In this document: piece by piece, positions 7,654 to 9,240 of the stretch
Numbering within the stretch: the stretch's first letter is position 1
Layout: each line of letters begins with the position of its first letter
From: Actinomycetota bacterium
GTDB lineage: Bacteria > Actinomycetota > CADDZG01 > JAHWKV01
Reading direction: 5' to 3'
Assembly: GCA_035759705.1 (NCBI GenBank)
Contig: DASTUJ010000191.1
Location: forward strand, 1 to 32,121
DNA length: 32,121 nucleotides
The notes under the pieces: model-generated
Seen by the model: only the letters and a program-made list of their open reading frames with translations
The model's database searches: none
What the model was told of the DNA's origin: nothing
Position numbers and translations under genes: made by a program

Positions 7654-8526
7654 ATGAGAAAAATCCAGAATTCCCACATCACCTTTGATCGGCTGATCGA
7701 CGGTAAGGCCCCCTCCGCCGATTCGCCGGCCGACGGCCTGTCGCTATTTGTCGAACAGGCCAAGAGGGTCGCCGCCATCGCTCCCAGCCCGGCTGCCGAG
7801 CAGGCTCATCTGAAGACGATTCTGGAGCAAGCTCATCTTCTCGTAGACAAAGGCGAACCGGCCGCGAGACCGGCAAGCAAAGCCACCGGGCCTGAGATTC
7901 AGGCGTCCGGGCTGCCAACACGAAGGAGGAAAGTGGTGCTCAGCTCTTTGTTCGGTTCACTCACAACCAAGCTGGCTGCCGCCGGAGTGGCGGTCATGAT
8001 GACCGGCACCGGCGCACTGGCAGCAACGGGAAGCCTTCCCGACGCCGTGCAGGACAAGTTTGCAGTAGCCGCCGAGGTGGTCGGGATCGACCTCCCCACC
8101 GGGGACGACGAGGTCACCGACACCGAAACCGACGGCACGACCGATGACGGCACCGACGGCACCGACGGCACCGAAGGCACCGAAGGCACTTCCGGCAAGA
8201 GCTCCAGCGACGACGTTCACGCCGCCCAGGACGCAACCGAGCCCGGCCCCGAGCGCGGCAAAGCGGTCTCCGAGGCCGCTCGCCAGAAGCCGGCCGGCGA
8301 GTCCGACCCCGACGTCGACGAGTCCGATGCGGATGTCGACGAGTCGGACAACCAGACCAGCGCCGCAGTTCACGAAGCAATCGAGTCCACCGAGCCCGGC
8401 CCCGAGCGTGGCAGGGCGGTCTCCGAGGCAGCCTCCGGCAAGAGCCGGGGCGGCGAGGACACCGACTCGGAAGAGTCTGAGGAGGAAACGGAGTCCCCCG
8501 CCGGCGAAAAGACGAACAAGAAGTAA
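7654..8526 (+). CDS. Membrane-anchored acidic protein with repeated motif, possible anti-sigma partner
   Basis: A 290-aa protein. Residues 1-90 are a soluble N-terminal part with a helical stretch (QAKRVAAIAPSPAAEQAHLK). RRRK precedes one transmembrane segment at ~98-125, then LPDAVQDKFAVAAEVVGIDLP, a (D/E)GT triplet run (~160-180) and a long acidic tail. The tail carries a 22-residue motif twice (188-209 and 239-260; 17 of 22 identical), with core TEPGPERG(K/R)AVSEAA. By the positive-inside rule the basic N-terminal side would be cytoplasmic and the tail outside. Proteins of this build often sit beside ECF sigma genes in actinobacteria, and a sigma factor follows here, so an anti-sigma or envelope-sensing role is plausible but unproven. 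Confidence 0.6.
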   Translation: MRKIQNSHITFDRLIDGKAPSADSPADGLSLFVEQAKRVAAIAPSPAAEQAHLKTILEQAHLLVDKGEPAARPASKATGPEIQASGLPTRRRKVVLSSLFGSLTTKLAAAGVAVMMTGTGALAATGSLPDAVQDKFAVAAEVVGIDLPTGDDEVTDTETDGTTDDGTDGTDGTEGTEGTSGKSSSDDVHAAQDATEPGPERGKAVSEAARQKPAGESDPDVDESDADVDESDNQTSAAVHEAIESTEPGPERGRAVSEAASGKSRGGEDTDSEESEEETESPAGEKTNKK

Positions 8527-8529
8527 TCC

Positions 8530-8544
8530 GCTAGCTACGCTAGC
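8530..8544 (+). promoter_or_regulatory. Inverted repeat overlapping a -10 box
   Basis: GCTAGC-TAC-GCTAGC is an inverted (and direct) repeat that contains TACGCT (8536-8541), spaced 6 nt before the ATG at 8548. It could be a promoter with an overlapping operator feeding the sigma gene separately from the membrane protein. Confidence 0.35.
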
Positions 8545-8547
8545 CAG

Positions 8548-8634
8548 ATGAGTTTCAAAGGAGGGCAACGCCCGCTTCGCCAACCAGCCCGCCATCTACG
8601 GCAGTCACTTTCCTGTCGGTGGAGACTTCCGTAG
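8548..8634 (+). CDS. Possible 28-codon leader ORF before the sigma gene
   Basis: ATG at 8548 opens a 28-codon, arginine-rich frame that runs through both arms of the hairpin described at 8575-8650. It ends with TAG at 8632-8634, immediately followed by the sigma-factor ATG, in the same frame. A ribosome reading it would melt the hairpin and stop exactly on the sigma start, a classic layout for translational coupling. It has no Shine-Dalgarno of its own, but TACGCT lies 6 nt upstream (leaderless spacing). It may be only a chance open frame. Confidence 0.35.
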   Translation: MSFKGGQRPLRQPARHLRQSLSCRWRLP

Positions 8635-8650
8635 ATGGCAGTTGGCGAGG
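8575..8650 (+). promoter_or_regulatory. Long RNA hairpin holding the sigma-factor start codon
   Basis: TCGCCAAC (8577-8584) pairs with GTTGGCGA (8641-8648), and GCCATCTACGG (8591-8601) pairs perfectly with CCGTAGATGGC (8629-8639). A 6:1 internal loop separates the stems. The 27-nt apical loop contains the likely ribosome-binding site (GGTGGAG, 8618-8624), while the ATG at 8635-8637 is base-paired. There is no U-tract, so it is not a terminator. Confidence 0.65.
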
Positions 8651-9240
8651 GCTTCCCCGAAATTCTGAGAGCCGCTCAGCTTGGAGCTGAGTGGGCTTGG
8701 CGCACCCTGTACCGGGATCTCGCACCGGCAGTCACCGGATACCTTCGTCTGCACGGCGTCGGCGAGCCCGAAGACCTTACCGGCGAGGTGTTCGTCCAAA
8801 TCGTACGGGGCTTGAGCGGCTTCACCGGCGACGAGATGCAGTTCCGCTCCTGGGTGTTCGTGATTGCCCACCACCGCATAGCGGACGAGAGACGCGCCCG
8901 TACCCGCAAGCCCTCCGCACCCGCCGAATTCCAGGCCCTGGAGCAGGTGGCGCCAACCGGCAACGCCGAGGAGGAAGCCCTCGGCCGGCTTTCGGTCGGG
9001 GAGATCCGCCGGGTCCTGGACGCCCTGTCGGACGACCAGAGGGATATCATGCTTCTTCGGATCGTCGGAGGACTGACTCTGGAGGAGACCGCCGGGGTTG
9101 TCGGCAAAAGGATCGGATCGGTGAAAGCGCTTCAGCGCCGGGCGATCGCCACCATCCGGAGGATGGGCCTGGTCAAGATGAGCGCCGCTCCGGGCAAGCT
9201 GACCACCGAGCTGGGACTAAACAGCTCCGCCGGCCGGTAG
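8635..9240 (+). CDS. ECF-type RNA polymerase sigma factor
   Basis: A 201-aa sigma-70 family protein. Region 2 spans ~residues 18-85 (EDLTGEVFVQIVRGLSGF, FRSWVFVIAHHRIADERR, the -10 binding helix). A linker follows, then region 4 at ~118-170 (LSDDQRDIMLLRIVGGLTLEETAGVVGKRIGSVKALQRRAIATIRR, helix-turn-helix for the -35). Size and domain content fit an ECF factor; the subgroup is not assigned. The ATG at 8635 sits inside a strong hairpin and directly after the TAG of an in-frame leader ORF, so initiation is probably regulated or coupled. The upstream membrane protein is a candidate anti-sigma factor. The 3' end overlaps the convergent gene by 24 nt. Confidence 0.85.
   Translation: MAVGEGFPEILRAAQLGAEWAWRTLYRDLAPAVTGYLRLHGVGEPEDLTGEVFVQIVRGLSGFTGDEMQFRSWVFVIAHHRIADERRARTRKPSAPAEFQALEQVAPTGNAEEEALGRLSVGEIRRVLDALSDDQRDIMLLRIVGGLTLEETAGVVGKRIGSVKALQRRAIATIRRMGLVKMSAAPGKLTTELGLNSSAGR

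Follow-up and report, generated by a model that had tools for sequence, protein, structure and literature searches.

How does a ribosome reach the start codon of an ECF sigma factor gene when that codon is held in the stem of a long hairpin and directly follows the stop codon of a short upstream ORF? The question is raised by a locus in the window, the whole stretch of 32,121 nucleotides analyzed here, which is a 32-kb contig from a 3.0-Mb actinobacterial MAG. The usual view of ECF sigma factors is that an anti-sigma partner controls them after synthesis. The answer that we favor, with a probability of about 0.5, is that the short ORF is translated from a leaderless message, that the ribosome terminating on it reinitiates at the sigma gene, and that the hairpin bars independent initiation there.

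The sigma factor gene (8635 to 9240, forward strand) encodes a protein of 201 amino acids with Sigma70_r2 and Sigma70_r4_2 domains (PF04542 and PF08281, both above cut-off, with TIGR02937 also above cut-off). Regions 2 and 4 are the only sigma-70 regions in the product, as in an ECF sigma factor. The N-terminus MA[VI]GE is conserved, which supports ATG 8635 as the start. Directly 5′ of the sigma locus lies the gene of a putative anti-sigma-like partner (7654 to 8526, forward strand; 290 amino acids). Its protein has one membrane-spanning stretch, predicted by eye, and a comparison with Pfam and NCBIfam returned no family; the partner protein of the orthologous locus described below matched DUF2275, at a sub-threshold score only. 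Relatives of the partner adjoin relatives of the sigma factor in many genomes across the class, mostly downstream of the sigma gene and, in the genus of the window, upstream of it. The C-terminal half of the partner contains a segment of the approximate form TEPGPERG.AVSEAA twice, with small changes, along with DGT-rich runs, and the repeated segment is also present in the orthologue. In G005, several tandem partner-like stretches lie on a single contig (C30). Close to the sigma locus, between 9783 and 12288 of the window, three ANTAR-domain genes stand near each other, two of them with GAF domains; these are regulators of the RNA-binding antiterminator type.

A sequence-only reading of the window had placed the sigma start codon in an 11-bp perfect stem extended by an 8-bp outer stem, and both stems proved exact. 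The left arm of the inner stem, GCCATCTACGG (8591 to 8601), pairs with the right arm, CCGTAGATGGC (8629 to 8639), which holds both the leader TAG and the sigma ATG. The outer stem is formed by TCGCCAAC (8577 to 8584) and GTTGGCGA (8641 to 8648), the latter within the sigma coding sequence, with a pairing probability of 0.98 at 37 °C. The inner arms in fact reach 16 nt with a single mismatch (8591–8606 with 8624–8639, 94% complementarity): an inner extension, AGTC at 8603–8606, pairs with GACT at 8624–8627 with a probability of 0.98, beside the likely ribosome site. That site is GGTGGAG (8618 to 8624), the likely Shine-Dalgarno sequence of the sigma gene by its position relative to ATG 8635; GTGGA precedes the ATG of the orthologue as well. 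The sequence-only reading had the ribosome site free in the loop. Its identification of the site stands, but the extension of the arms to 16 nt leaves GGTGGAG itself partly paired. All of these elements are on the forward strand.

The fold of 8520–8680, which had been proposed as a check, gave −66.7 kcal/mol, compared to −50.9 ± 4.3 kcal/mol for dinucleotide shuffles (z −3.68, reached by 0 of 200). The 72-nt hairpin folded alone gave −38.3 kcal/mol. Within 411 kb sampled from the genome of the window we counted 31 inverted repeats with perfect arms of 11 bp or longer and loops of at most 60 nt, and the hairpin at the sigma start is the sole one with an outer stem of at least 8 bp. Three shuffles of the whole sample (1.2 Mb), with 8 to 10 repeats each, produced no such outer stem. 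Opening the region from −14 to +5 around the sigma AUG was calculated to cost 22.3 kcal/mol, third among 295 gene starts in this genome (the top 1%; median 11.1 kcal/mol). With the RNA held in the model by a ribosome up to 8594 or beyond, the cost drops to approximately 11–12 kcal/mol, that is, to the genome median. The origin of the hairpin as a repeat element was considered and dismissed, as no further copy of the region was found in its own genome or in relatives. The 11-mer of the inner arm occurs four times exactly in the genome, two of these being the arms themselves, and near matches are about as frequent as for the reversed control. An intrinsic terminator, with a G+C stem followed by a T run, was also sought between 8400 and 8800, and none was present. 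A search of Rfam returned no family above threshold, only two sub-threshold microRNA models.

The second element is the leader ORF (8548 to 8634, forward strand), which encodes MSFKGGQRPLRQPARHLRQSLSCRWRLP in 28 codons before its TAG and is predicted to be leaderless. As described in the sequence-only reading, it runs from ATG 8548 across both arms of the hairpin and ends with TAG 8632–8634 directly before ATG 8635, so that stop and start codons adjoin with zero spacing (8632 to 8637). The sequence TACGCT (8536 to 8541, forward strand) is a putative −10 element of the TANNNT type, separated from ATG 8548 by a 6-nt spacer; no −35 of the sigma-70 type was found near it. A short dyad, GCTAGC-TAC-GCTAGC (8530 to 8544), surrounds the putative −10 and is not a dyad in the orthologue. 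There is no Shine-Dalgarno sequence before ATG 8548, as expected for leaderless translation. Our genome statistics come from a sample of approximately 400 kb for each genome, that of the window and that of the orthologue. In both, TANNNT is enriched at 12–13 nt from the ATG of genes, the arrangement of leaderless transcripts, and TACGCT stands at exactly this distance from the leader ATG in both species. Since TANNNT marks leaderless starts in the genus, the leader ORF is probably translated in leaderless fashion.

Short ORFs of the leaderless type that end between −8 and +3 nt of a gene start are few, 2 for approximately 295 gene starts in the genome of the window and 3 for approximately 286 in that of the orthologue, the two loci themselves included. 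As a class they showed no enrichment over control motifs. By a count made by eye, roughly half of the 28 codons in the leader have G or C in third position, compared to a fraction of 0.82 in the genes of the genome; nothing therefore suggests selection on the codons. No run of one residue, as in an amino-acid attenuator, was seen in the leader peptides (arginine accounts for 6 of 28 residues here and for 2 of 14 in the orthologue).

A scan of genome contigs, in collections with 8 genomes of the order and 24 of the class, gave one syntenic orthologous locus. It belongs to another MAG of this genus (isolate YX3bin35, record JAUJPC010000001.1), and its sigma factor is 68% identical in sequence. 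The same partner gene is present, and genes for an FMN-dependent dehydrogenase and a WYL regulator, judged by their translations, are likewise found upstream. TACGCT, the 6-nt spacer and the leader ATG recur in both loci, as do a reading frame that stays open as far as the sigma gene and a TAG immediately preceding the sigma ATG, so that the −10, ATG, frame and junction are conserved in this one orthologue. The leader ATG lies 21 nt past the stop codon of the partner in the window and 22 nt past it in the orthologue. At fourfold-degenerate sites the two sigma genes have reached saturation (0.40 identical, 0.36 expected), and the features common to the two loci have therefore probably been kept by selection. 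The rarity of coupled ORFs of the leaderless type makes their recurrence at an orthologous gene unlikely by chance (approximately 0.5%).

The leader of the orthologue, MSRIGPRPHFKWTK, has 14 codons compared to the 28 here, the lengths differing by exactly 14 codons. The two peptides have no detectable likeness (shuffle P 0.4–0.5). The left arm of the hairpin is missing from the orthologue, where the corresponding stretch is absent. Occlusion of the start is unremarkable in the orthologous gene (rank 67 of 286 gene starts), and no conserved fold of the start region was detected there. In one predicted fold, the GTGGA site of the orthologue lies within a small hairpin of 7 bp, which may be similar in effect; its homology to the hairpin of the window is not demonstrable. 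The sequence-only reading had named two features whose loss from homologues would tell against it, the pairing and the leader frame. In the only orthologue found the pairing is lost and the leader frame is kept. With the leader architecture kept and the hairpin arm missing, the coupling of leader to sigma gene is probably conserved, whereas the hairpin, as judged from this comparison, is specific to the species of the window.

Based on these observations, we propose the following mechanism, in which the transcription start, the leaderless translation, the reinitiation and the requirement of the leader for sigma synthesis are inferred. The sigma gene would have its own promoter just past the stop codon of the partner, with TACGCT at 8536–8541. 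Transcription would begin at or beside A8548, such that the message opens with the leader AUG, and the 28-codon leader would be translated leaderless. The ribosome would cross both arms of the hairpin and terminate at UAG 8632–8634. There it would cover the right arm and leave the adjoining sigma AUG exposed, and reinitiation would take place at this codon. In the event that the leader is not translated, the hairpin would hide the AUG and GGUGGAG, and independent initiation would be strongly reduced. The conserved function would then be the coupling of leader to sigma factor, and the strong hairpin a species-specific tightening of it. The idea of the sequence-only reading, in which a ribosome translating the leader melts the hairpin and is passed on to the sigma gene, is the best-supported explanation. 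It is strengthened by the leader ATG, the leaderless-type −10, the frame and the TAG/ATG junction that the orthologous locus keeps; the hairpin is not conserved in this only orthologue found. We count against the mechanism that the collections searched contain only two orthologous loci, the second of which has no left arm and an ordinary degree of start occlusion, and that strong structure just 3′ of a stop codon has been reported to lower coupling (PMC12548453). The unlike leader peptides, the codon composition of the leader, the missing −35 and the lack of enrichment of such coupled ORFs as a class also weigh against it. Translational control at this locus is plausible and probably real, and other bacteria have control of the same kind.

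Our main doubt concerns the hairpin, which may have no function: a template switch could have produced it recently as a quasi-palindrome, with its left arm an inverted copy of the sigma start. The coupling would then be real and the hairpin neutral, and it would be tolerated since a coupled ribosome melts it in any case. Allowing for small gaps, the arms do fit an inverted duplication of the start region, the leader of the window is 14 codons longer through an insertion that covers the left arm missing in the orthologue, and the coupling features are conserved where the hairpin is not. However, the 11-bp inner and 8-bp outer stems are still perfect, even though 6 nt separate them on one side and 1 nt on the other, which suggests either youth or selection for pairing. 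We consider a neutral hairpin unlikely, while taking it as a serious possibility. That the palindrome acts instead as DNA, as an operator for a regulator near the promoter and possibly for the sigma and partner system itself, seems very unlikely to us. Such an operator would fit a perfect dyad of this length lying no more than 110 bp from the putative −10, but the arms are asymmetric, lie 27–56 nt apart and are situated 3′ of the predicted transcription start, and the dyad has no second copy in the genome and is absent from the orthologue.

The leader ORF, for its part, might be accidental, a stretch of plain untranslated leader whose shared features reflect chance or conservation of the promoter only. 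The comparison involves two sequences only, the peptide is not conserved and the leader carries no coding signature, all of which such an explanation would accommodate. It has to contend with the TAG/ATG junction, the frame and the leader ATG being common to both loci despite the saturation of neutral sites, and with the chance background of approximately 0.5%; we regard it as improbable. The sequence-only reading had also allowed for temperature or a ligand as the controlling signal, and neither survived our calculations. A thermosensor or riboswitch at the start codon, with the leader ORF having no role, would account for the pairing of the start codon and the ribosome site. However, when pair probabilities were computed from 25 to 75 °C, the start region did not melt: in the model the AUG is paired up to 75 °C, at which temperature its unpaired probability is at most 0.022. 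A ligand-binding element is disfavored by the absence of any Rfam family above threshold and of any fold conserved in the orthologue, and either device would leave the conserved leader ATG and TAG/ATG junction unexplained. We give a thermosensor or riboswitch almost no credence. The alternative pairings of GCCC 8570–8573, from which switching had been suggested, are borne out by the fold (probability 0.76 with 8649–8652 and 0.21 with 8563–8566), but the AUG is paired in both, and the pair probabilities speak against a switch.

Beyond the orthologue, the sigma factor family shows other arrangements. Among 30 family loci, only the orthologue likewise has a leader ORF that abuts the sigma start codon; one further locus (L009) has the TAG/ATG junction, but the frame before it has no start codon. 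At L011 (minus strand), a possible leaderless ORF, TACCCT-N8-ATG, lies 5′ of the sigma gene; it encodes MSMFLVRLERFASGFRFCEPDAAL and ends in a TGA that overlaps the sigma ATG. By its sequence, this locus is another possible case of leader coupling among these sigma genes. A sister group of sigma genes in the same genus (L008, L010 and L044, the last on the minus strand) is also preceded by a partner gene. These three have an in-frame N-terminal extension of 29 codons continuous with the sigma gene (V.VND.N..G.ALA.GGGR..R..LR.P). Its length is the same in the three species, it begins at a GTG that they share, and changes are fewest at codon position 2; there is a stem-loop inside it. The extension is possibly part of a long sigma isoform. 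We also considered homology between the leader and this extension, and the likeness was not significant (P 0.05–0.5 for the leader of the window, 0.5–0.9 for that of the orthologue).

If the proposed mechanism is true, the coupled leaderless leader and the locked start would place a stress-type sigma factor under an additional control at translation. The locus comes from a little-studied actinobacterial lineage and offers a compact case for asking whether leaderless short ORFs deliver ribosomes. A further reading, which we regard as a long shot, is that only ribosomes which started on the leaderless message synthesize the sigma factor. With ordinary initiation barred by the hairpin, sigma synthesis would then report the capacity for leaderless (70S-type) translation, and the regulon would follow the state of the ribosome pool and not only the partner. 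The finding itself is modest, because its separate ingredients are already known.

The sequence-only reading had held that no element with this layout was described, a view that the literature on iraD (PMC5574718), on coupled leaderless small ORFs of mycobacteria (PMC4633059) and on uPPE2 (PMC11260477) does not sustain; with these systems on record, the layout is of an already known kind. The unfolding model and the reinitiation model are both described in a 2025 review (PMC12548453). In Escherichia coli iraD, a structure sequesters the Shine-Dalgarno sequence, the stop codon of a short ORF overlaps the start codon, and downstream expression depends on that ORF (PMC5574718, Park et al. 2017). 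The locus described here resembles iraD in two respects: the initiation region of the downstream gene is buried in structure, and a short ORF terminates where that gene starts. The hiding structure is overlapped by the upstream ORF, both arms lying within or beside it, though it is not conserved in the orthologue. The iraD ORF is repressed by CsrA and has its own Shine-Dalgarno sequence, whereas the ORF here looks leaderless, and the product of iraD is an anti-adaptor that protects RpoS, whereas here it is a sigma factor (PMC5574718). PPE2 of Mycobacterium tuberculosis depends strictly on translation of the upstream ORF uPPE2, by termination-reinitiation, the mode that we propose here; in that system a B12 riboswitch governs initiation and the overlap is AUGA, whereas our locus has no such aptamer (PMC11260477). 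The leaderless polycysteine short ORFs of Canestrari et al. (2020), as cited in PMC9094748, are likewise located at the 5′ end and regulate what lies downstream; according to that account they are cysteine-responsive attenuators, whereas no single-residue run is conserved here. Leaderless small ORFs coupled to downstream genes are common in mycobacteria, where the linkage is conserved and the peptides have diverged (PMC4633059, Shell et al. 2015). Unlike in those cases, the downstream gene here encodes an ECF sigma factor and a strong hairpin covers its start codon; the spacing also differs, with an RTGA overlap there and the zero-spaced TAG/ATG here (PMC4633059). This too is a member of the Actinomycetota with a short ORF predicted at the 5′ end of the transcript, which terminates right at the following gene's start codon in both the window and the orthologue, and as in mycobacteria (PMC4633059) the linkage is conserved more than the peptide, the junction and the start being kept between the two loci while the peptides are unlike.
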